Assembly (NCBI GenBank): GCA_021287165.1
Contig: JAJTAY010000001.1
Span: 37,173-101,172, forward strand
Reading direction: 5' to 3'
Source of the DNA: Bacteroidia bacterium
GTDB taxonomy: Bacteria > Bacteroidota > Bacteroidia > Bacteroidales > F082
DNA length: 64,000 nucleotides
Part shown: one piece after another, positions 9,989 through 40,911 of the stretch
How the letters are laid out: the number at the start of each line of letters is the position of its first letter
How positions within the stretch are numbered: the stretch's first letter is position 1
The notes under the pieces: generated by a model
What the model was told of the DNA's origin: nothing
Seen by the model: the letters and a program-made list of their open reading frames with translations, nothing else
Database searches by the model: none
Program-made: the position numbers and the translations under genes

Positions 9989-10546
9989 CTATTGCTTAAC
10001 CCTGCCGGGGTTTTGGTCCAGAAAAGCCTTCCAGCCTGAGTAGCTTGCACTTTCGGTTTTGCTGGTTTTACCCTGAAAGTAGTGACAAACGGCAGCGGCG
10101 AGACCGTCGGTGGCGTCGAGGGCTTCGGGCTGCTCATCAAATGCAAGCAGGGTTTGCAGCATGGCAGCCACCTGTTCCTTTGAGGCGTTGCCATTGCCGG
10201 TAATTGATTGCTTGATTTTTTTCGGGGAATATTCAAAAACAGGGATATCCTGATTAAGTGCCGCTGCAATGGCCACACCCTGAGCACGGCCCAGTTTGAG
10301 CATGGATTGGACGTTTTTACCATAAAACGGCGCTTCGATGGCCAGTTCGTCGGGCTTGTATTCGCGAATGAGCTCGGTGGTGCGGTCGAATATTTTTTTC
10401 AGCCTTAGGGCATGGCTGGCGTATTTGTTGAGCCTCAGCACACCCATAACCAAAAGCTTCATGCGCGTTCCATTCTGCACAATTACACCATAACCCATGG
10501 TGGTGGTGCCAGGGTCGATGCCAAGGATGATGCGTTCGCTGTCCAA
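9989..10546 (-). CDS. ruvC: crossover junction endodeoxyribonuclease RuvC
   Basis: Holliday-junction resolvase acting with RuvAB. The RNase H-like fold is clear: [14 protein letters not shown] with the first catalytic Asp, [12 protein letters not shown] with the catalytic Glu, [20 protein letters not shown], and [13 protein letters not shown] with the final acidic residues. The only in-frame ATGs are at 10621 and 10618, which would add 25 unrelated residues and overlap the divergent gene. A TTG at 10546 gives [13 protein letters not shown], the usual RuvC start and about 185 residues, and leaves 22 bp to the divergent ATG at 10569; I prefer it. Confidence 0.9.
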
Positions 10547-30565: not shown

Positions 30566-31267
30566 ATGCTGAAACGTAAATCAGAAACCTGCACCGATTG
30601 CGAGAAGTGTAATAACAAGTCCCCGCTTTTTCAATTACTAAGCCGTGAAGAGCTGATCATTATGAATATGGGCCGCTTCGAATTGCGGTTCAACAAAGGC
30701 GAAACCATTGTTAAGCAGGGTACTCATGCAACACATTTGATTTCGCTCACCAGTGGAATGGCAAAATTGTATCTCGAGGGATTCGACAATAAGAACATCT
30801 TGCTCGATATCTTGCAGGAGTGGAGGCTTTTTGGTGGGCCAGGCCTTTTCACCGATTCCAAATATCACTATTCGGTGGCTGCGCTTTCGGAAAGTACGGC
30901 TTGTTTTATACCTATCGATAATCTGCGTCAGGTAATCCGGACTAATGCCGATTTTGCGGAGGGATTGATCAAGCACTGCAATGCCAACAGTGTAACTAAT
31001 TTTGAACGACTGGTTAGCCTCACGCAAAAGCAGATGCATGGTCGCCTGGCCGATGTATTGCTGTTTTTTTCCGACAAGCTGTTCCGGTCCGATCGTTTTG
31101 TTTTGCCGGTGAGCCGTCAGGAGCTTGGCGAGATGTCGAATATGACCAAGGAAAGCGTAACGCGCATTCTGAAGGAGCTCGAAAGCGACGGGGTTATCGC
31201 GCTGGATACCAAGCACATACGTATTTTAAACAAAACAAGTCTGGAAGAATTGTCGCTTAGGGCTTAG
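30566..31267 (+). CDS. Crp/Fnr-family transcriptional regulator with N-terminal Cys motif
   Basis: A 233-residue regulator: cyclic-nucleotide-type beta-roll (about 25-140) and a winged helix (about 155-225, VSRQELGEMSNMTKESVTRILKELESDGVI). The N-terminus has C9, C12 and C15 in a CxxCxxC array, as in FNR-like proteins that hold Fe-S, with one fewer Cys visible than in classical FNR; an oxygen or redox sensor is possible. The 3' end overlaps the convergent T9SS gene by 11 bp. Confidence 0.82.
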   Translation: MLKRKSETCTDCEKCNNKSPLFQLLSREELIIMNMGRFELRFNKGETIVKQGTHATHLISLTSGMAKLYLEGFDNKNILLDILQEWRLFGGPGLFTDSKYHYSVAALSESTACFIPIDNLRQVIRTNADFAEGLIKHCNANSVTNFERLVSLTQKQMHGRLADVLLFFSDKLFRSDRFVLPVSRQELGEMSNMTKESVTRILKELESDGVIALDTKHIRILNKTSLEELSLRA

Positions 31268-32054
31268 CCACGGTAAATTTTCCACCCGCTGTGCGAAATT
31301 TTCCACTTTCGATGTAATAAAGGTATTGTCCGCCTGGCCATCCCGATACATCGATTTGCAGCTGTCCGCTACTGTTATTTAATTCCATTGTTCGCAGGCT
31401 TCGTCCGGCGGCATCCTGAATGTGCAGATTGGCTTTGCTGATATTCTCAGGCAATACCCATGGCAGGGTCAGGCTATGCCCGGCCGGATTGGGAAAAGCC
31501 TGCTGCAGCGGAATTTCGGCAGTATTCGGAAACTGGTTTGTAACGAGAGATCCGGGTAGGCTGTATACCTTGGTTTGAACAGACACCGGAAAAACAGAAT
31601 AATCGTAAACGTAGGCCAACAGCTTGCTACTTCCGTTGGCTAATTTTTGCACAATGAGATACTGGCAGCCTGGAATGCTGAGCAGCTGTGTTCCGTTTTC
31701 GCGCACCACTTTGGCGGTGTAGGTGTAGTATTGGCCTACATCGTTGTAACTATAATAAATATAGGCCAGACAAAGCCCATTATCGGTAGTGAAAAGGCCT
31801 TCGCTGACGAATTTGATGTCGTAGAGCCAGTTGTTGGCAGGCACCGAAAGGTTGATGGTTTTCCAAAGGCTGTGGTCGGCATTATAGATACGGCATTGGC
31901 TCAGCGATACGTCCATAATGTAGAATTTGTTGCCAACCGAGGGAAGGTAAGTATAAATACCAGAGTAATTGTAGGAGGCTTCGGGGTTGATCTGTGCGCT
32001 TACGAGAGAGCTTGCTGCAATAAGCAAAAAAGCTGCGATAATTATGTTTTTCAT
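31257..32054 (-). CDS. T9SS-exported protein, unknown N-terminal domain
   Basis: 265 residues from ATG 32054 with a clean signal peptide (MKNIIIAAFLLIAASSLVSAQ). The middle is Tyr-rich and strand-like with no recognised fold (YIYYSYNDVGQYYTYTAKVV). The C-terminus is a T9SS sorting domain (AFPNPAGHSLTLPWVL to GGQYLYYIESGKFRTAGGKFTV). It is probably secreted or surface-attached; the longer start at 32183 would hide the signal. Convergent overlap of 11 bp with the Crp-family gene. Confidence 0.75.
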   Translation of the reverse strand: MKNIIIAAFLLIAASSLVSAQINPEASYNYSGIYTYLPSVGNKFYIMDVSLSQCRIYNADHSLWKTINLSVPANNWLYDIKFVSEGLFTTDNGLCLAYIYYSYNDVGQYYTYTAKVVRENGTQLLSIPGCQYLIVQKLANGSSKLLAYVYDYSVFPVSVQTKVYSLPGSLVTNQFPNTAEIPLQQAFPNPAGHSLTLPWVLPENISKANLHIQDAAGRSLRTMELNNSSGQLQIDVSGWPGGQYLYYIESGKFRTAGGKFTVAKP

Positions 32055-32072
32055 GTTTGATAAATATCCGCA

Positions 32073-32080
32073 CAAAGGTA
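32073..32080 (-). promoter_or_regulatory. -7 element for the T9SS protein gene
   Basis: The minus strand reads TACCTTTG, a full TAnnTTTG match, 19 bp from the ATG at 32054. Confidence 0.45.
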
Positions 32081-32195
32081 GAAATGTATTCTTATGACTG
32101 GTTTTATACAATTTTTGGGAAAGCGTACAAGATTTTCCAATTGGTGGCAATCCTAACACTAAGCCAGTAATTTTACCCCGCAAATCTCGAAAACG

Positions 32196-33289: not shown

Positions 33290-33907
33290 ATGTCTGACTT
33301 CAAACAGTCGCGATACCTGCTGAGCAATATGCTTAGCGATTGCTGCCTCAGGCTTATGATGCTTGAGTTGGAGAAGTTGGGCGTGGAGGTAAAAAAAGCC
33401 CGGCTGGGCGAGGTTTTGCTGCGCTGGGATGAGGATCTGGTTAAAGAAAATGAGATTCTCGATCTATTCAGTCGTATGGGTTTTGGCCTTATCGACGATC
33501 ATGAGAAAGCCTTAGTTGAAGACATCAAACGCGTGGTGATCGAACTGGTATGGCACACAACCTTCAACGCCATGGTGCGCAATTCCGATTTTATTGTGAG
33601 CCGGTTCGACAAAAGCTATCAATACCTCTCCACACTGTTTTCGCGCCACGAACACATTACCCTCGAGAAATACATCATTTTACAGAAAATAGAGAAAGTA
33701 AAGGAGCTCCTTCAGGATGAGCGACTTACGCTTAGCGAAATTGCCTATATGATGGGCTACAGCAGTGTGCAATACCTTTCTACCCAATTCAAACAGGTTA
33801 CGGGCTACTCGGTTACGGAATACCGCAGCCTGCCCGAAAAACAACGCAGTGGCATAAGGTTGTCGGATGCCAAACTCCTTGGTAAAGACGAAAATTTTGA
33901 ACGATAA
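33290..33907 (+). CDS. AraC-family transcriptional regulator
   Basis: A 205-residue protein with an unassigned helical N-terminal domain (about 1-115) and a C-terminal AraC double helix-turn-helix (about 118-185): YIILQKIEKVKELLQDERLTLSEIAYMMGYSSVQYLSTQFKQVTGYSVTEYR. The second half matches the family signature strongly. It directly precedes the six-gene PqqD/ATP-grasp operon by 65 bp on the same strand and is a natural candidate for its regulator. Confidence 0.85.
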   Translation: MSDFKQSRYLLSNMLSDCCLRLMMLELEKLGVEVKKARLGEVLLRWDEDLVKENEILDLFSRMGFGLIDDHEKALVEDIKRVVIELVWHTTFNAMVRNSDFIVSRFDKSYQYLSTLFSRHEHITLEKYIILQKIEKVKELLQDERLTLSEIAYMMGYSSVQYLSTQFKQVTGYSVTEYRSLPEKQRSGIRLSDAKLLGKDENFER

Positions 33908-33972: not shown

Positions 33973-34224
33973 ATGAAGATTAAGAGCAACATAGCCATCA
34001 GCGACAACGGCTTCGTGTTCAACCCGGTGACAGGCGAGTCGTTCACGGCCAATCCCACCGGGCTGGAAATCATGAACCAGATGCGTCGCGGAGCCTCAGC
34101 TCCTCAAATCGTAGAGACCCTTTGCAACATGTTTCAGGTGGAACCTACCCAGGCCGAACGCGACCTGCAGGACTTTATCGAAATGATGCGGCAATATCAT
34201 CTTTTGACCTATGACGAAGAATAG
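33973..34224 (+). CDS. PqqD-like RiPP-recognition-element protein
   Basis: An 83-residue protein with the PqqD/RRE fold: strands around IAISDNGFVFNPVTGESFTANPTGLEIMNQM, then a winged-helix part with IVETLCNMFQVEPTQAERDLQDFIEMM and a final leucine-rich strand. PqqD-type proteins bind the leader of a peptide and present it to modifying enzymes. The stop overlaps the ATP-grasp start by 14 bp, giving tight coupling. No PqqA-like precursor ORF was seen beside it; a leader-like sequence is instead fused to the decarboxylase-like protein (35288-36649). Confidence 0.8.
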   Translation: MKIKSNIAISDNGFVFNPVTGESFTANPTGLEIMNQMRRGASAPQIVETLCNMFQVEPTQAERDLQDFIEMMRQYHLLTYDEE

Positions 34225-35263
34225 ACCAAAACTCACCATCGGAGTGACAGGGCTGAATGCCATTGACAGCCCGGGACCCGGTGTAGCAGTCATTCGCGGT
34301 CTCAGGGAAGCCGAAAGCTTCGACTGCCGAATTATTGGGCTCTCCTACGAATCGCTCGAGCCAGGCATCTATATGCACCATCTGGTGGACAAAACCTACC
34401 AGATTCCCTATCCTTCGGCAGGCACTGAGGCACTCATGCAAAGGCTGCAATACATACAGCAGAAAGAGAAAATGGATGTGATTATCCCAAACTTCGATGC
34501 CGAGCTGTTTTCATTCATGCGTCTCTCGGGTACGCTGCGCAGTATGGGCATCAACACCTTTCTGCCTGAAAATGAGCAATTCGAGGCCAGACAAAAGGTT
34601 AATCTATACAATTTTGGTAAGGAGCATGGCATCAGCGTTCCACCAGCCAAAGTGATTTACACCCTTGGCGAAGCGCAAAACATCGACAAGGATTTCGACT
34701 GGCCGCTGGTGGTCAAAGGCAAATACTACGATGCCAGCCTGGCCTACAACCCTGAGCAGGTGCGCTCGGCCTTCAACAAGATTTCGGCCAAATGGGGCCT
34801 GCCCATCATCATACAGAAGTTTATTCACGGCTCGGAATACAATGTAACAGGCCTGGGCGACGGACAGGGCAACACCCTTGCGGCAGTACCCATGCGCAAG
34901 CAATACATCACCGACAAAGGCAAGGCCTGGGGTGGCATTTCCATAGCCGACGAAAAAGCCATTGAGCTTACACGGCATTTTGTGAAAGCCTCGCGCTGGA
35001 GAGGTCCGTTCGAGCTTGAACTAATGATGGACAAGGAGGGGCAATATCACCTGCTTGAAATCAATCCGCGTATGCCTGCCTGGATTTATCTGGCGGTGGG
35101 CGTGGGGCAAAACATACCCGAGGCCGTGGCCAGACTGGCCATGGGCTGGCCGGTGAAGCCCTTCGAGCACTACGAAGTAGGTAAGATGTTTGTCCGATAT
35201 TCCTGGGATATGATTGTGGACATCAGCGAGTTTGAAACCATATCCACCCAGGGCGAACTTTAA
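34211..35263 (+). CDS. ATP-grasp ligase, carbamoyl-phosphate-synthase-like
   Basis: A 350-residue ATP-grasp enzyme. The N-terminus (IGVTGLNAIDSPGPGVAVIRGLRE) is a Rossmann-like region, followed by the ATP-binding part (DWPLVVKGKYYDASLAYN, IIIQKFIHGSEYNVTG) and the catalytic Mg site LLEINPRMPAWIYLAVGVGQNIPEAVARLAMG. Such enzymes activate a carboxylate as acyl-phosphate and join it to an amine or thiol. In this operon the probable substrate is a peptide or amino acid. It resembles CPSase large-subunit halves but is single-domain. Confidence 0.82.
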   Translation: MTKNRPKLTIGVTGLNAIDSPGPGVAVIRGLREAESFDCRIIGLSYESLEPGIYMHHLVDKTYQIPYPSAGTEALMQRLQYIQQKEKMDVIIPNFDAELFSFMRLSGTLRSMGINTFLPENEQFEARQKVNLYNFGKEHGISVPPAKVIYTLGEAQNIDKDFDWPLVVKGKYYDASLAYNPEQVRSAFNKISAKWGLPIIIQKFIHGSEYNVTGLGDGQGNTLAAVPMRKQYITDKGKAWGGISIADEKAIELTRHFVKASRWRGPFELELMMDKEGQYHLLEINPRMPAWIYLAVGVGQNIPEAVARLAMGWPVKPFEHYEVGKMFVRYSWDMIVDISEFETISTQGEL

Positions 35264-35287
35264 TCAGAAACAAAAAAACATTGAAAT

Positions 35288-36649
35288 ATGCCAACGAGAA
35301 AAATTTACGAACGCCCGGTAATCAAAAAACTTGAGGGCAATATGCCCAACAAATTTGGTATGCGTTCGGCACATGAACCCACGCAGAGCATTGAGGGACA
35401 TGCAGTTAAAGACCTCATCAACGAGTTTGGCTCTCCGCTTTTTGTGATTTCGGAGAAGAAGCTGCGCAAAAATTACCGCAATGCCCGTCAGGCTTTCCAG
35501 ACACGCTATCCCAAGGTGCAGTTTGCCTGGAGCTACAAAACCAATTACCTCGATGCCGTTTGCAATATCTACCATCAGGAAGGCTCATGGGCCGAGGTGG
35601 TTTCGGGCTTCGAATACGACAAGGCCATCCGCAACGGCGTGCCGGGCAGCAAGATCATCTTCAACGGGCCAGACAAAACCGACAGCGACCTGCGCAAAGC
35701 CATCACCAACAACTCGCTCATCCACATCGACCACCTCGACGAGCTCTACATGCTCCAGGACATTGCCCGCGAGTCGAAGATGCGCCCGCGGGTGGCCATA
35801 CGTGTGAACATGGACACCGGGGTTTATCCCATGTGGGACCGTTTCGGATTCAATTACGAAAACGGCCAGGCCTGGGATGCCCTGAACAAGATAATGTTTT
35901 CAGGTTTAATGGATCTGGTGGGACTACACACCCACATCGGCACTTTCATGCTTTCGCCCAATGCCTATGCTGTGGCAGCTTCCAAGCTGGCCCATCTGGC
36001 CCAGAGCCTGCTCAACAAATACAACCATGAAATCAAGTATATCGACATCGGGGGAGGATTTGCCAGCAAAAACACCCTCAAGGGCTCCTATCTGCCCGGC
36101 AGCGACGTCAGCCCTTCGATTCACGACTTTGCCGAAGCCATCGCCTCGGCCCTGATGAACAGCGACTACAGGCCCAAAACCCCACCAGTGCTGGTGATTG
36201 AGTCGGGCCGTGCGCTCATCGACGATGCCGCATGGTTGCTGGGAACGGTGCTGGCCAACAAACGCCTGAGCGACGGCCGCAGGGCCACCATTCTCGACAT
36301 TGGCGTAAACACCCTGTTCACCGCCTTCTGGTACGACCACCTCATCACACCGGCCCAGCCCATCACCTCCTACACCGAAGACACAGCCCTTTACGGGCCA
36401 CTGTGTATGAACATCGACGTGGTGCGCGAAAACGTCAACCTGCCCCTGCTCAACCGTGGCGACCATGTGGTGGTGCATCATGTGGGGGCCTACAACATGA
36501 CCCAGTGGCTGCAGTTTATCACCCTAAGACCCAATGTTTTGCTTATTGACGAGGAGGGCGGAAAACATCTGATACGTCGCGCCGAATCCCTCGATACCAT
36601 TACCTCGCAGGAGATCATGCCGGCTCATCTGGCCCATTTTGACCTATGA
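35288..36649 (+). CDS. diaminopimelate-decarboxylase-like PLP enzyme with leader-like N-terminus
   Basis: A 453-residue fold-type III PLP enzyme related to LysA. PLP lysine K84 (WSYKTNYL, in place of the usual VKAN), HTHIG (214-218), GGG (255-257), ESGR (305-308, usually EPGR) and a retained active-site Cys C373 (GPLCMNIDVV, usually CESxD). Residues 1-24 form an extra N-terminus, IYERPVIKKLEGN, with Y7-x2-P10-x-I12 and G17. This resembles the YxxP part of RRE-bound RiPP leaders. The substrate is unknown; decarboxylation of a peptide-linked or free amino acid is possible. ATGA overlap with the next gene. Confidence 0.85.
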   Translation: MPTRKIYERPVIKKLEGNMPNKFGMRSAHEPTQSIEGHAVKDLINEFGSPLFVISEKKLRKNYRNARQAFQTRYPKVQFAWSYKTNYLDAVCNIYHQEGSWAEVVSGFEYDKAIRNGVPGSKIIFNGPDKTDSDLRKAITNNSLIHIDHLDELYMLQDIARESKMRPRVAIRVNMDTGVYPMWDRFGFNYENGQAWDALNKIMFSGLMDLVGLHTHIGTFMLSPNAYAVAASKLAHLAQSLLNKYNHEIKYIDIGGGFASKNTLKGSYLPGSDVSPSIHDFAEAIASALMNSDYRPKTPPVLVIESGRALIDDAAWLLGTVLANKRLSDGRRATILDIGVNTLFTAFWYDHLITPAQPITSYTEDTALYGPLCMNIDVVRENVNLPLLNRGDHVVVHHVGAYNMTQWLQFITLRPNVLLIDEEGGKHLIRRAESLDTITSQEIMPAHLAHFDL

Positions 36650-38844
36650 GCATCGCAAGGTTCAGGCAGCTTTTCCCGCACTTCAGGCTGAGCATCCGCA
36701 ACAGCTACACCCAGATCTTTTTCTCGAAAGATAAGATACTGGGCTGGACATTGATGCTCATATCCTTTTTCGACTGGCAGGCAGGGCTGGCAGGCTGGCT
36801 TTCGGTGGCTGTGGCCAACACGGCAGCCTATATGAGCGGCCTCAACCGGCAAAAGATTACTGACGGTCTTTATGGCTTCAATGCCTTGCTCGTGGGCCTG
36901 GGGCTTGGTTCCTATTATCAGCTTAATAGCGCCTTTTTGTTGGTCATCCTTTTTGCTGCCTTGCTAAGCCTGCTGGTAACCACCCTGCTCGAGGGCATTC
37001 TGAGCAAATATGGCCTGCCTTTCCTGAGCCTGCCATTTCTCATTACCTACTGGATGACCATTCTTAGCACCCGCGATTTCAGTCAGCTCGAACTCAGCCG
37101 CCATGGACTCTACAACCTCAACGAAATGTTTCGGCTGGGAGGCTTGCCGCTCATGCGGTCTTATGAATGGATAAGCAATCTTAACCTGCCCGAAACCATT
37201 AAAATTTATTTCCGCTCGCTGGGCGCTGTGTTTTTCCAGTATCATCTTTTTGCTGGCGTGCTTGTGGCACTGGCCCTGCTCAGGTGGTCACGTCAGGCTT
37301 TTCTGTTTTCCGTAATCGGGTTTTCATCGGCATGGTTGCTTTACAGGCTTTTGGGAATCAATATGCAGTCGGTGTCCTATAGCTACATTGGTTTCAACTA
37401 CCTGTTGACAAGCATCGCCATTGGCGGATTTTTTCTGGTCTCATCAGTGGGTTCGCTTATTTGGCTCATCATCTCCGTTCCCATTACCGCTTTTGTAATT
37501 GCCTCGGGCAATGCCATATTCAGCAACTGGCAGGTAGGCATTTATTCTTTGCCCTTCAACGTGGTGGTGCTACTGGTGCTTTATCTGCTGCGGCTCAGGG
37601 AGCGTTTCACCGAAAATCCGCCCCTGGTTTTTTATCAGCAGTATAGCCCCGAGCAGAACCAATACAATTATCTGGTAAACCGTAAAAGGCTTGCTCACCT
37701 GAGCAGTATGCCCGTCAAACTTCCGTTCTGGGGCATTTGGAAAGTGACACAAGGCTTCGATGGCGAGATTACCCATAAAGATGCCTGGCGTCATGCCTGG
37801 GATTTTGAAATGACCGACGAGGAGGGAAAAACTTTCCGAGGCGATGGATTGCGCTGCGAAGATTACTTCTGCTACGATAAACCGGTGATTTCGCCGGCCG
37901 ACGGGGTGGTGCAGGAAGTAGCCGACGGCATACCCGACAATGCCATTGGCGATATGAACCTCAATAAAAACTGGGGCAATACGGTACTTATCTGGCATGC
38001 TACCGGCATTTACAGCCAACTGAGTCACCTCAGGAAAGGCAGTATCACCGTAAAATCAGGACAGACCATTCGCAAAGGCGAGCAGATTGGCCGATGCGGC
38101 AATTCGGGACGATCGCCCTATCCGCATCTGCATGTGCAGTTTCAGGCCGTGCCCGAAATCGGAGCGGCCACAATCAGTTTTCCTTTTGCAGGCTACCTCA
38201 CCATCAACGGCAAAAAGCAGCTTCATCCTTCAGGTCAGCCACATAAAGACCAGTATGTTGCAAATCTAAATCCGGAAACTCTGCTCGACAGGGCCTTACA
38301 TTTCATTCCCGGTCAGGAGCTGAGGTTCGAGGTGCTTTCCGACGGAAAGTCTGAAGGCGAGGTCGTTTGGCGTGTTGAGACCGATATCTTCAATAATACT
38401 TACCTTGAATGCAAAACCACCAGCGCCAAGGCCTGGCTGGTGCGCCAGCCCGATGTGCTCTATTTCACGCACTACGAAGGGCCTGACGATACCCTGTTGA
38501 AAGAGTTTTTCCAGGGTGCTTATCAGCTCAGCACGGGCTTTGAACCGGGACTTATCTTGTCGGAAAGCATTAGCCTGCACTATTTTCCGAATAAGGTACT
38601 CAAACAATTGCAGGATTTTGTCTCGCCCTTCTTCAGATTTATCAGGACAAACTACCATCTGGAACATTATGCCCGGACAGGCGACATGCTCGACGAGGGC
38701 ATCGAATTGCGCACCAATGTTAGCCATATGGCTTTCAACAGGGTAATAAAAGCAAAAAGCTATGAACTGCACTTTGCCAACGACCAGATTAAAACCTTTG
38801 CGATACGCGATAATCAAACCGTTAAAATCTTGAAGCGTGTATAA
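36646..38844 (+). CDS. urea-transporter/M23-metallopeptidase fusion
   Basis: A 732-residue fusion. Residues 30-320 contain about ten helices with the urea-transporter phrase QKITDGLYGFNALLVGLGLG. After a linker, an M23/LytM-type zinc peptidase domain (about 360-505) has RHAWDF (H383, D386), SHLRKG (H461) and PHLHVQF (H494, H496). The H-to-D spacing of the first pair is three rather than the usual four. A C-terminal beta-rich region of about 200 residues is unassigned. The peptidase would act outside the cytoplasm. The combination of channel and endopeptidase in one chain is unusual. Confidence 0.82.
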   Translation: MSIARFRQLFPHFRLSIRNSYTQIFFSKDKILGWTLMLISFFDWQAGLAGWLSVAVANTAAYMSGLNRQKITDGLYGFNALLVGLGLGSYYQLNSAFLLVILFAALLSLLVTTLLEGILSKYGLPFLSLPFLITYWMTILSTRDFSQLELSRHGLYNLNEMFRLGGLPLMRSYEWISNLNLPETIKIYFRSLGAVFFQYHLFAGVLVALALLRWSRQAFLFSVIGFSSAWLLYRLLGINMQSVSYSYIGFNYLLTSIAIGGFFLVSSVGSLIWLIISVPITAFVIASGNAIFSNWQVGIYSLPFNVVVLLVLYLLRLRERFTENPPLVFYQQYSPEQNQYNYLVNRKRLAHLSSMPVKLPFWGIWKVTQGFDGEITHKDAWRHAWDFEMTDEEGKTFRGDGLRCEDYFCYDKPVISPADGVVQEVADGIPDNAIGDMNLNKNWGNTVLIWHATGIYSQLSHLRKGSITVKSGQTIRKGEQIGRCGNSGRSPYPHLHVQFQAVPEIGAATISFPFAGYLTINGKKQLHPSGQPHKDQYVANLNPETLLDRALHFIPGQELRFEVLSDGKSEGEVVWRVETDIFNNTYLECKTTSAKAWLVRQPDVLYFTHYEGPDDTLLKEFFQGAYQLSTGFEPGLILSESISLHYFPNKVLKQLQDFVSPFFRFIRTNYHLEHYARTGDMLDEGIELRTNVSHMAFNRVIKAKSYELHFANDQIKTFAIRDNQTVKILKRV

Positions 38845-40303
38845 TAAGTTGATATATACGGTTTTGCTGTCGGCTTTGGGTTGGGTAGTAAGCGCACAGC
38901 CTGCAGCGCGTAGTGTCAATCCCGACAGCCTTACATGGCAGTTATACCAGCAAGGACGTTGGGAAGAATTATTGAAGACCGGAAGGCAGCTCAACAGACA
39001 AGGTATCGATTACTACTATCTGCGAATGCGCATGGCTGTGGCGGCTCTGGAAACCCAGCGCTACGACGACGCAGTCGGATATTTACGCAGGGCAATGGAA
39101 TTCAGTCCGCGCGACCTGCAGGCACGCCGCCTGATGGTTTTGGCCCGAAACTACAACCTTATGCCGGCCGAAGCCGGAAGGGTCTTTAACGGTCTGCCCG
39201 AAATCCAGCAAACTGATCTTGGCATAAAACCAGATTTCAGATTGCTCTCGGTACACACAGATGTGGGCATCAGCCGTACCAATCTCAACATTGCCGATAA
39301 TTTTGAGGCACTTGCGGGTCAGTCAGGCTTTTACGGCAGTCAGTCGGGCCTCAGCCAAAGCGGCTTGCAGGATGCCGGAGTATGGATGCAGCTCAGGCCG
39401 GGTTGGCTGCTTTATGGTGGTTTTCAGAGCATGGGCTACAATTTTGAGCAGAATTTTGCCTATCTCGAACCTGAGTTGAAGCTCGAACGTGTTGAACTGA
39501 ACGGAAACTATAAGGACTTTTATTATCGCATCGATGCCAAACCCACTGTTTTCGATGCCCGGATTTACACACTTCAACGTTCTTTTCTCGCTCAATCGCG
39601 CTATGCTCTGGCTTATAATGTACAACTTGTAGCCTCCGCGGGCATGTCGAAAGTGCATGGGGAGTATCCCTACGTCATTACTGACAGCATACGCTTCACC
39701 GACACCGCCCGCCTTGATCTCAACTCAGGCCTGGCCACCCTGTTTAATGTAGATGTGCCTGTTGCGAAGGTGAGAACCAAGCTATGGCGCACCACCGACT
39801 TTAGGTTGGCACTGGGTGCCATTGCGCATTTTGGACGAATCAGCCCGTCTGTGGGTATGCATTTCGGCCGTGTCAACGACACCAGCCTGCTGCAATTGCA
39901 GGCAGGCTACACCTGGCGTCTGAGGGGCAATTCCAAAACATGGCAGCAGGCAGAGGTTTTTGTACTAGGCGACAGCAAAAGCTGGAGGCCTGCACTGAAA
40001 ATTGCCGCCGGACATTGGTTTGGTACTTCAACACAGCTTTCGGCCTCGGTGATTACCGGTCACCTGAACGGCATGGCTGACCAATGGGGCTATGTAGTAT
40101 TTAACCACCGCGACCGCCTCGACCTATTTGGCGAAGGCATGCTGATGCAAAAAATAATACCTAAGGTCTATTTCAGCTTACGCTACAGGTATAGCAAAAG
40201 CAGGATGAGATCCGAACAACTGGACGAGAACCTGAAGCTGAATGTTACGTACAAAGATTTAATTTCACACGGATTTATCGGAGGATTGATATGGAATTTA
40301 TGA
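38837..40303 (+). CDS. TPR domain plus outer-membrane beta-barrel
   Basis: 488 residues. The start is GTG 38837 (8-bp overlap with the preceding gene) or TTG 38849; either keeps the signal peptide. Two TPR-like units (about 35-105, YYLRMRMAVAALETQRYDDAVGYLRRAMEFSPRDLQARRLMV) are followed by a barrel-like region to the C-terminus (repeated strands such as GWLLYGGFQSMGYNFEQNF and VYFSLRYRYSKSRMR) ending in LIWNL. It probably lies in the outer membrane and gives the cluster an export or docking site. Confidence 0.7.
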   Translation: MYNKLIYTVLLSALGWVVSAQPAARSVNPDSLTWQLYQQGRWEELLKTGRQLNRQGIDYYYLRMRMAVAALETQRYDDAVGYLRRAMEFSPRDLQARRLMVLARNYNLMPAEAGRVFNGLPEIQQTDLGIKPDFRLLSVHTDVGISRTNLNIADNFEALAGQSGFYGSQSGLSQSGLQDAGVWMQLRPGWLLYGGFQSMGYNFEQNFAYLEPELKLERVELNGNYKDFYYRIDAKPTVFDARIYTLQRSFLAQSRYALAYNVQLVASAGMSKVHGEYPYVITDSIRFTDTARLDLNSGLATLFNVDVPVAKVRTKLWRTTDFRLALGAIAHFGRISPSVGMHFGRVNDTSLLQLQAGYTWRLRGNSKTWQQAEVFVLGDSKSWRPALKIAAGHWFGTSTQLSASVITGHLNGMADQWGYVVFNHRDRLDLFGEGMLMQKIIPKVYFSLRYRYSKSRMRSEQLDENLKLNVTYKDLISHGFIGGLIWNL

Positions 40304-40911
40304 GAAGAACGATTGTGGCTTTTCTGTTGTTTTTTTCTGTTATTAGCAGCAAAGCTCAGGACTATGAGAAGCTTTCCAAAGCATTCGAAGCATCCTATGC
40401 AGCCGAAAACAAGGGCGAATACCAGCAGGCCATACAGGCCTTGCTCACTGTTTACAGGGCCGACAGCTACGAACTCAACCTTCGCCTTGGCTGGTTGCAT
40501 TATATGTCCGGCCGCTTTACCGATGCTTTGCCTTATTACCAGAAAAGCATTGATCTGATGCCTGTGGCCATCGAAGCCAAGCTGGGCTATGTGTTGCCTG
40601 CCGCTGCCCTGGGCAACTGGGCTCAGGTGGAAAAGCAGTACCGCGAAATCCTAAAAATCGACCCGATGAACACCACGGCCAATTACCGCATGGGACTCAT
40701 TCACTATGGGCGGCAGGAGTACGCCCAGGCCCTTCGTTTTTTCGAAAAGGTGCTAAACCTTTATCCCTTCGATTACGATACAGTGATTATGGTGGCCTGG
40801 TCGCACCTGAAATCAGGGCAGATGCGCGAGGCGAAGGTGATGTTTCAGAAAGCCCTGCTCATCCGTCCCAATGATACCGATGCGCTGCAGGGTCTTGGTA
40901 TGATCAAATAA
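40291..40911 (+). CDS. exported TPR protein
   Basis: A 206-residue protein with a signal peptide (RTIVAFLLFFSVISSKAQ) and four to five TPR units (SYELNLRLGWLHYMSGRFTDALPYYQKSIDLMP, TTANYRMGLIHYGRQEYAQALRFFEKVLNLYP and others). It starts 13 bp inside the end of the barrel gene, so it belongs to the same operon. It is likely a periplasmic scaffold for the barrel protein. No enzymatic motif is visible. Confidence 0.8.
   Translation: MEFMRRTIVAFLLFFSVISSKAQDYEKLSKAFEASYAAENKGEYQQAIQALLTVYRADSYELNLRLGWLHYMSGRFTDALPYYQKSIDLMPVAIEAKLGYVLPAAALGNWAQVEKQYREILKIDPMNTTANYRMGLIHYGRQEYAQALRFFEKVLNLYPFDYDTVIMVAWSHLKSGQMREAKVMFQKALLIRPNDTDALQGLGMIK

Follow-up and report, generated by a model that had tools for sequence, protein, structure and literature searches.

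Domains of the RRE type (RiPP recognition elements, RiPPs being ribosomally synthesised and post-translationally modified peptides) are known as docking domains for RiPP precursor peptides. What might such a domain hold in an operon whose other genes encode a ligase, a decarboxylase, a channel-peptidase fusion and two putative envelope proteins? The question is raised by a 64,000-nucleotide stretch of the genome of a Bacteroidia bacterium (assembly GCA_021287165.1, contig JAJTAY010000001.1, positions 37,173 to 101,172), here termed the window, in which six open reading frames (ORFs), here g1 to g6, were verified at 33973-40911, all on the + strand. Their order, and their junctions (a 14 bp overlap, a 24 bp gap, then overlaps of 4, 8 and 13 bp), are as described in a first-pass annotation made from the sequence alone, and the domains named there are borne out by Pfam. 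The answer proposed here is that the PqqD/RRE protein, g1, most likely holds g3, the decarboxylase encoded in the same operon, by a leader-like tag at the N-terminus of that enzyme.

A leader-like tag and its likely PqqD partner

The third gene (35288..36649, + strand, 453 amino acids) encodes a pyridoxal phosphate-dependent decarboxylase of the alanine-racemase fold, similar to FslC and FigC (Pfam Orn_Arg_deC_N 101.3 bits, cut-off 23.4; Orn_DAP_Arg_deC 47.8 bits, cut-off 23.0). Ahead of the fold its N-terminus reads MPTRKIYERPVIKKLEGNMPNKFG. Residues 7-24 of this segment (YERPVI...NKFG; 35306..35359, + strand), which are predicted to be disordered, form the tag. The motif [Y/F]xxPx[hydrophobic] is found in all 152 rows of the g3 alignment, which represent 151 distinct loci: the aromatic residue is Tyr in 113 and Phe in 39, with Pro at +3 and the hydrophobic residue at +5. 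Without exception in the 152 rows, position +15 is a Lys (Lys22 in the window, 35351..35353, + strand), followed two residues later by Gly in 148, while most tag residues between the RRE anchor and the Lys vary. The tag of locus L104, YTKP, keeps its Y, P and K at the same spacing as the rest. These rows combine 72 with a further 80 loci taken from among the 136 genomes found to carry g3; L111 and L202 hold the same gene, and L055 and L058 have identical cores in two genomes. The added loci are mostly at or below 67% identity to the window and enrich the clade with Phe tags, and some loci at contig starts were left out of them, so the Tyr/Phe proportions are no census.

The AlphaFold2 model of g3 has pLDDT (predicted local distance difference test) values below 50 for residues 1-28, so that the tag appears to hang free of the fold; the values fall in some active-site loops as well. 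The true LysA of the same genome has no such N-terminal tail. Among the best 120 database relatives of g3 the tag is present in 113; the seven exceptions are sequences that start from an internal Met or are truncated. In two loci (L054 and L061) a longer gap between g2 and g3 holds an ORF, of 89 and 135 amino acids respectively, that has no tag motif.

The motif is close to the leader motif of the discrete RREs of lasso peptides, given as [Y/W]xxPx[L/V/I/A/F/Y] in PMC13381572. A PqqD protein and a leader motif together are hallmarks of RiPP pathways, and the lasso-type RRE FusB1 can be promiscuous (PMC13381572); a true RiPP pathway might therefore employ a separate precursor with the same leader, encoded elsewhere in the genome, the g3 leader serving only to join the complex. 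However, a strict motif search of 118 sequences (the window and loci L001-L117, some of them overlapping; whole genomes were not scanned) yielded 104 hits, all of them in LysA-type ORFs, and thus neither a second tagged ORF nor a short precursor with the leader. Nor do the operon genes have any match, in Pfam or NCBIfam, to a lasso cyclase of the Asn-synthetase-like kind, a radical SAM enzyme, a graspetide-type enzyme or another RiPP class enzyme. We regard a separate precursor as improbable, and on this evidence the separate peptide envisaged at first pass as the target of PqqD gives way to a leader that sits on the decarboxylase.

The first gene (33973..34224, + strand, 83 amino acids) encodes a discrete PqqD/RRE protein (Pfam PqqD 47.6 bits, cut-off 23.4). 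Its best NCBIfam match, also obtained by 14 of 14 aligned members, is lasso_PqqD_Strm at 38.4 bits (cut-off 70), and the best PDB matches of its profile are the lasso-type RREs TbiB1 (5v1u, 52.8 bits) and TfuB1 (6jx3, 42.8 bits). By profile, therefore, g1 has the PqqD fold, and it carries the contact residues that go with a cognate YxxPx[hydrophobic] leader. For LppB, PMC13381572 describes an Asp70 that hydrogen-bonds the leader Tyr and an Asn33 that holds the kink at the leader Pro; the D70A mutation weakens the complex and N33A nearly abolishes it. Alignment of the g1 profile to chain 9x8z places Asn27 (34051..34053, + strand) at Asn33 and residue 64 (Asp64 in the window, 34162..34164, + strand) at Asp70. 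In chain 9x90 the two places hold Gly and Gln, as the same source says for PbaB1; from these aligned residues we infer that 9x8z is LppB and 9x90 PbaB1. Asn27 is invariant (143 of 143).

Residue 64 varies together with the aromatic residue of the tag. In the first 72 operons the combinations were Tyr-Asp 61 times, Tyr-Asn once and Phe with Tyr, Ser or His ten times, Phe-Asp being absent. In 133 pairs, Tyr occurred with Asp (86), Asn (10) and His (1), and Phe with Tyr (20), Ser (11), Ala (4) and His (1); pooling to 142 pairs gave Tyr with Asp (89), Asn (13) and His (1), and Phe with Tyr (23), Ser (11), Ala (4) and His (1). Thus 102 of 103 Tyr tags accompany Asp or Asn, and 39 of 39 Phe tags accompany Tyr, Ser, Ala or His. 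No other g1 column shares as much information with the tag aromatic, the figure for residue 64 being 0.83 bits and that for the next column 0.26 bits (133 pairs). The rule that Asp or Asn predicts Tyr, and any other residue Phe, was right in all eight held-out pairs, where the residues were checked by alignment; these loci were held out by accident, their PqqD gene lying further upstream than the first cut. L192 also fits the rule. Fisher's test of Asp against the rest gives 4e-23, a value not corrected for kinship. As to coverage, PqqD was inside the fetched stretch in 63 of the 80 added loci, and ten of the other 17 were refetched with longer flanks, whereupon eight gained it; ten of the 152 rows stay unpaired (L144, L149, L152, L170, L179, L188 and L202, cut by contig ends; L111; L164/L201).

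Kinship was taken into account with a tree of the g3 core without the tag (132 rows, one row having been dropped by length filters). On this tree the tag aromatic changes at least eight times, and residue 64, scored as Asp/Asn against others, also at least eight times. Four independent pairs could be drawn on well-supported branches: out of 200 pairings, 172 have residue 64 changing in the same direction in every one of the four and 28 in three of them, the opposite direction never being seen. Pagel's dependent model is preferred over the independent one (likelihood-ratio statistic 57.3, 4 degrees of freedom, p 1.1e-11, n=132), the two traits agreeing in 131 of 132 rows. Two earlier, smaller trees held too few switches to be informative.

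Since the tag co-varies with residue 64, and this residue corresponds by profile to Asp70 of LppB, the most likely binding partner of PqqD is the decarboxylase encoded with it in the operon. That PqqD would bind the tag in the way in which lasso-type RREs bind YxxP leaders is strongly supported by the same comparisons. A hint at first pass that PqqD be paired with the N-terminus of the decarboxylase was thus well placed.

The ligase, the decarboxylase and the channel

The second gene (34211..35263, + strand, 350 amino acids) encodes an ATP-grasp ligase of the PRK12767/ATPgrasp_Ter type (Pfam ATPgrasp_Ter 44.9 bits, cut-off 29.1; NCBIfam PRK12767.1-4 84.8 bits, below cut-off). Residues E268, E270, E283, N285 and R287, acidic and Asn residues among them being typical of the fold, are each present in at least 97% of 72 sequences. 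Weak likenesses, below cut-off, to tyramine-glutamate ligase and to PylC-type N-termini suggest that g2 is an amino-acid ligase. It matches no graspetide-ligase family in Pfam or NCBIfam, and so is not placed among the graspetide synthetases.

The nearest solved relative of g3 is N-citrylornithine decarboxylase (7kh2, E 2.6e-58), ahead of the best diaminopimelate decarboxylase (5e-38) and of the BtrK structures (E ~1e-25). With the NCBIfam FslC model it scores 232.3 bits against a cut-off of 500 and so falls outside that family. Residues Lys84, His214, His216 and Cys373 are retained. Assignment as LysA, a diaminopimelate decarboxylase, was considered and rejected: the lysA score is 215.5 bits (cut-off 297.9), the catalytic loop reads CMNID and is not of the CESSD type, and Thr345 stands where the Arg of RPxxY would be. 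The other LysA of the genome scores 385.6 bits and has both CESSD and RPALY. In FigC, residues T327, T330 and Y331 replace those that bind the far end of other substrates, including the Arg of diaminopimelate decarboxylase, and Met355 replaces the acid beside the catalytic Cys354 (PMC7857480). The g3 equivalents are Thr345, Trp348 and Tyr349, and Cys373-Met374, with Thr345, Trp348, Cys373 and Met374 found in at least 98% of 72 sequences; the correspondence comes from a PDB alignment in which the chain numbering appears shifted by 19. In diaminopimelate decarboxylase 1twi an Arg aligns with Thr345. Because g3, like N-citrylornithine decarboxylase, does not have the residues that hold a charged far end, its substrate is most likely uncharged at the far end, where it may be amide-capped. 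This would not be N-citrylornithine itself, since FigC His357, the proposed binder of the citryl group, is Ile376 in g3.

The fourth gene (36646..38844, + strand, 732 amino acids) encodes a channel of the urea-transporter (UT) fold fused to an M23 peptidase (Pfam UT 189.6 bits, cut-off 25.0; Peptidase_M23 56.0 bits, cut-off 28.7). Its AlphaFold2 model has a mean pLDDT of 81.5, the second half of the UT part lying mostly at 49-73; in Foldseek the model finds dvUT (3k3f, E 1.1e-10) as well as M23 domains, with TMt values of 0.72-0.78 to the dvUT entries. The UT fold is thus recognisable, with a score to the yut family of 117 against a cut-off of 274.6. Conservation was followed in 193 rows, which have 188 distinct C-terminal halves and include 119 database proteins that may repeat fetched loci; L105 and proteins of 600 amino acids or fewer are omitted. 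In the channel part (36646..37608, + strand), alignment to 3k3f shows Gln23 kept in 182 of 193, and Ser at both places of a dvUT pore Thr (Ser128 in 191, and Ser301, placed by eye, in 172). The Glu of the second half is replaced by Ala (Ala194, 37225-37227) in 177 of 193. This Glu and the Gln we take to be the urea-site residues of dvUT, and one member of the pair is therefore missing. Given the replacement of the Glu, g4 is probably not a plain urea channel.

These results bear on the idea that the operon serves ordinary nitrogen metabolism, g3 being a polyamine or diaminopimelate enzyme, g4 an uptake channel for urea or an amine, and the tag incidental. Automatic names such as diaminopimelate decarboxylase, alanine racemase and urea transporter favour it. 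The motif residues of diaminopimelate decarboxylase are absent from g3, however, the genome has another LysA, the urea-site Glu is mostly lost, and the tag co-varies with PqqD. This idea is already unlikely, and of the readings weighed here we give it the least weight. Of g1 to g4, none is named by an NCBIfam family above its cut-off, and the names that single members bear, FslC among them, come from their parts.

In the M23 domain of g4 (37774..38145, + strand), H377, D386, H461, H494 and H496 are each present in 193 of 193 rows, a complete set of zinc ligands and catalytic His residues, the roles being assigned from M23 motifs. A degenerate M23 domain was considered, the usual first His (H383) being Tyr or Phe in 64 of 193, but was rejected because H377, six residues N-terminal of H383 and nine before D386, is invariant. 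A longer first spacing of this kind occurs in LasA-type M23 members. In every one of the 193 rows the side of the termini carries more Lys and Arg, in loops defined from the model, than the opposite side does, also when the long outer loop is counted, and at least two follow directly after the last helix in 189. A clear extra membrane helix behind the UT part was not found, 19-residue hydropathy exceeding 1.6 in only 4 of 193. In human UT-B, which has ten helices, the two termini both lie inside (PMC5700210). Because the charge pattern likewise puts both termini of g4 inside, the M23 domain is predicted to be cytoplasmic and not, as first annotated, extracytoplasmic. The C-terminal region of about 230 residues (505-732) is well predicted and beta-rich, with no Pfam match.

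The invariant Lys of the tag, at its fixed +15 position in a segment where most intervening residues vary, invites a further reading in which the tag is itself the substrate. PqqD would present Lys22, a candidate acceptor for the ATP-grasp enzyme, which would attach an amino acid by its side-chain carboxyl; g3 would decarboxylate the arm, as BtrK does with glutamyl-acyl carrier protein in butirosin synthesis, and M23 would free the product where the channel opens. An RRE ordinarily offers a peptide to the enzyme that modifies it, the g3 pocket resembles one for an amide-capped substrate, BtrK structures are among the relatives of g3, and the catalytic residues of the M23 domain are intact in a domain predicted to be cytoplasmic. 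Against this, a second docking contact would explain the invariant Lys-x-Gly equally well, and no graspetide-ligase family claims g2. We consider this reading rather unlikely, and no more probable its corollary that g3 is its own carrier protein, loaded on Lys as an isopeptide, decarboxylated on a swinging arm and cut loose by the cytoplasmic M23 domain at the entrance to a repurposed urea channel. If true, such a self-carried assembly line would be RiPP recognition turned to primary-style metabolism across a phylum.

Conservation and neighbourhood of the operon

The operon is real, and its six genes stay together far beyond close relatives, which the first-pass annotation had set as a test of the proposal. 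Residues 1-560 of g4, used as the query of a protein search, retrieved 2177 relatives out of 7995 scored, with both Pfam domains in all of the 120 matches listed. Of 100 genomes drawn from near that of the window, which is counted among them, 52 hold relatives of g4 at E <=1e-150. Among 296 genomes drawn evenly from Bacteroidota, again including that of the window, relatives at E <=1e-60 occur in 27 (about 1 in 11), and a search with g3 (E <=1e-75) found the identical 27: both genes in 27, one alone in none, neither in 269. Within the order to which the window belongs, g3 is present in 136 of 344 genomes. When 74 loci around UT-M23 genes of other genomes were inspected, 70 (39 of 40 and 31 of 34) were found also to carry PqqD, ATP-grasp and LysA-like genes. 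Three of the four without the full set (L111, L112 and L117) are cut at a contig start, and the fourth is the split operon of L071, where g3 and g2 are on other contigs of the same genome. In L116, which is among the 70, the PqqD, ATP-grasp and LysA-like genes lie on the opposite strand. Loci L001-L003 were dropped as duplicates of L039-L041.

The gene set was seen in Bacteroidota metagenome-assembled genomes (MAGs), including WOUZ01000001 (Bacteroidetes), and in one Balneolaceae MAG. A relative of the UT-M23 gene with 43% identity (L004:31-2160) sits at a contig edge of a Candidatus Marinimicrobia MAG, a hint either of spread beyond Bacteroidota or of contamination. One genome (G420) holds two g2-g3 copies (contigs C234 and C56), their g3 proteins 69% and 63% identical to that of the window. 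In L105 (genome G104) the UT-M23 gene is in two pieces with an internal stop (TGA), beside a match to g1-g3.

The fifth gene (38837..40303, + strand, GTG start, 488 amino acids) has a signal-like start and a weak TPR (tetratricopeptide repeat) match, and is assigned to the operon by synteny; since no family lies above cut-off in Pfam or NCBIfam, its outer-membrane barrel remains a prediction. The sixth (40291..40911, + strand, 206 amino acids) is a TPR protein (TPR_2 83.5 bits), likely exported, with a signal-like N-terminus as judged by eye. Of the two TPR proteins, one a barrel, that were first proposed, g6 is confirmed by Pfam, while g5 keeps a weak TPR and the barrel only as predicted. In a distant clade of 13 loci the place of g5 is vacant, and the TPR gene is followed by one for a protein of some 280 amino acids with a signal-like start. 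Two such proteins, and look-alikes in L104 and L107, matched no family above cut-off; the highest score, 19.9 bits against 23, was that of L107 to a porin family.

Just upstream of g1 lies the gene of an AraC-type regulator (33290..33907, + strand; Pfam HTH_18 53.9 bits), as first annotated. A relative is present in 22 of the 74 loci, on the operon strand in 20 and with a median place just upstream; it is likely to regulate the operon in some members of the family. Six loci (L052, L054, L061, L062, L063 and L065) have an ORF of about 277 amino acids inserted between g3 and g4, as identified by cluster size and gap length; that of L061, the only one scanned, belongs to the IF-2B family (87.4 bits). 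In seven loci a gene for a metallopeptidase of family M64 (IgA peptidase type), likely secreted, lies upstream of g1 on the same strand; the copy scanned (L061:10837-12108, - strand) scores 243.7 bits. Near the operon, 13 loci hold a member of a cluster of proteins that are likely secreted, the one scanned (L093:3986-4822) having a sorting tail of the type IX secretion system (T9SS). A T9SS-tailed protein of a different kind is encoded in the window (31257-32183, - strand, 36.2 bits), and in L075 a look-alike was noted by eye after the operon (10150-10353 of the reversed locus). Neither an Rfam family nor a tRNA was found in the window. As to an anti-phage role, there was no PADLOC match for six proteins and no PHROG for the three proteins tried.

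Proposed mechanism and comparison with known systems

Starting from the operon, the tag, its fixed Lys and the co-variation with PqqD, all established at the level of sequence, the mechanism that we favour, at a probability of roughly 0.6, is one in which g1 grips the tag of g3 and brings this enzyme to g2, so that an amino acid is ligated, then decarboxylated, and the product leaves through the UT-like pore. PqqD would hold the g3 tag and also touch g2, thereby uniting ligase and decarboxylase; the contact with g2 is proposed because the g1 and g2 genes overlap and because an RRE as a rule works for an enzyme that carries out a modification. In the ligase step an amino acid would be capped or attached, and g3 would then remove its carboxyl group, the two enzymes presumably acting in turn on the same amino acid. 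The M23 domain may act where the channel opens on the inner side, trimming or releasing the product there, and exit would be through g4, then by way of g6 and g5 across the periplasm and outer membrane.

Several observations weigh against this mechanism or its parts. One operon (L155) pairs a Tyr tag with His, an exception to the residue-64 rule, and Asp and Asn were grouped after the data had been seen. Only four Tyr/Phe switches are well supported, so that a sign test alone gives p 0.125, which is not significant, and the Pagel p value is approximate, one rate being at its lower limit and others very large. In genome G075 (locus L112) UT-M23 is present and neither g2 nor g3 was matched in the rest of the genome; in G085 and G411 PqqD and ATP-grasp are not adjacent to g3 even with longer flanks. 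The proposal that g2 feeds g3 draws on gene neighbourhood alone, and the Ile376 of g3 departs from the FigC model. As for topology, the long outer loop of the UT part has Lys and Arg (mean 2.4) together with 3.8 Asp and Glu, and one inner loop has neither Lys nor Arg.

No description of this gene set was found among the matches listed from the open-licence literature searched, nor any assignment of it to a characterised pathway, in agreement with the first-pass annotation; nor did the set turn up when three RiPP papers (PMC8939145, PMC12710340 and PMC10352776) were searched by term. The earlier picture of a conserved operon with a leader binder and with enzymes resembling an amino-acid ligase and a decarboxylase is sustained, and the export or cleavage of a peptide, which it also suggested, finds no support. 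The UT channel family passes small molecules. As far as the literature was searched, the operon, found across Bacteroidota, is an undescribed one, in which an RRE and a leader carried by a metabolic enzyme have seemingly evolved together. It also has an M23 peptidase for which a cytoplasmic position is predicted, and a channel of urea-transporter fold whose urea site is altered. Genome mining for RiPPs that relies on short precursors next to PqqD would overlook or misinterpret operons of this kind. Single-residue tests are offered by the tag, by the PqqD residue and by the Lys.

Among channels, g4 shares with the UT/SLC14 proteins dvUT and UT-B the fold and, mostly, the pore Gln, with Ser for two pore Thr residues; it differs in its fused M23 domain, in having Ala for the urea-site Glu and in falling below the yut cut-off. 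FigC and FslC resemble g3 as its best relatives (232 bits; 7kh2) and in the Met beside the catalytic Cys and the Thr at the T327 place. They differ in that g3 lies below the family cut-off and has Ile for His357, with no NIS (non-ribosomal-peptide-synthetase-independent siderophore) synthetase in the operon; FigC, moreover, has about 14 native residues before the matched part, if the numbering offset is read correctly, against 35 in g3. In butirosin synthesis, BtrI-BtrJ-BtrK likewise unite an ATP-grasp ligase, BtrJ, with a LysA-type decarboxylase, BtrK, that acts on a tethered amino acid, there glutamyl-acyl carrier protein; the present operon has no acyl carrier protein and has an RRE and a tag instead. 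The decarboxylation by BtrK is mentioned in PMC2922099.

Closest in recognition are the RRE-leader pairs of the lasso/LPP type (TbiB1, TfuB1/FusB1 and LppB-LppA): they share with the present operon a PqqD fold encoded by a separate gene, the leader motif and the two contact positions of LppB, and differ in that here the leader is carried by a 453-residue enzyme and not by a short precursor, with no cyclase among the operon genes. Borosins also fuse a RiPP-like peptide segment to an enzyme, the precursor being joined to its own methyltransferase with the core C-terminal and no separate RRE, whereas here the tag is N-terminal and has a separate RRE. The principle of recognition is therefore a known one; what is new is its use on a metabolic enzyme together with this transport module.

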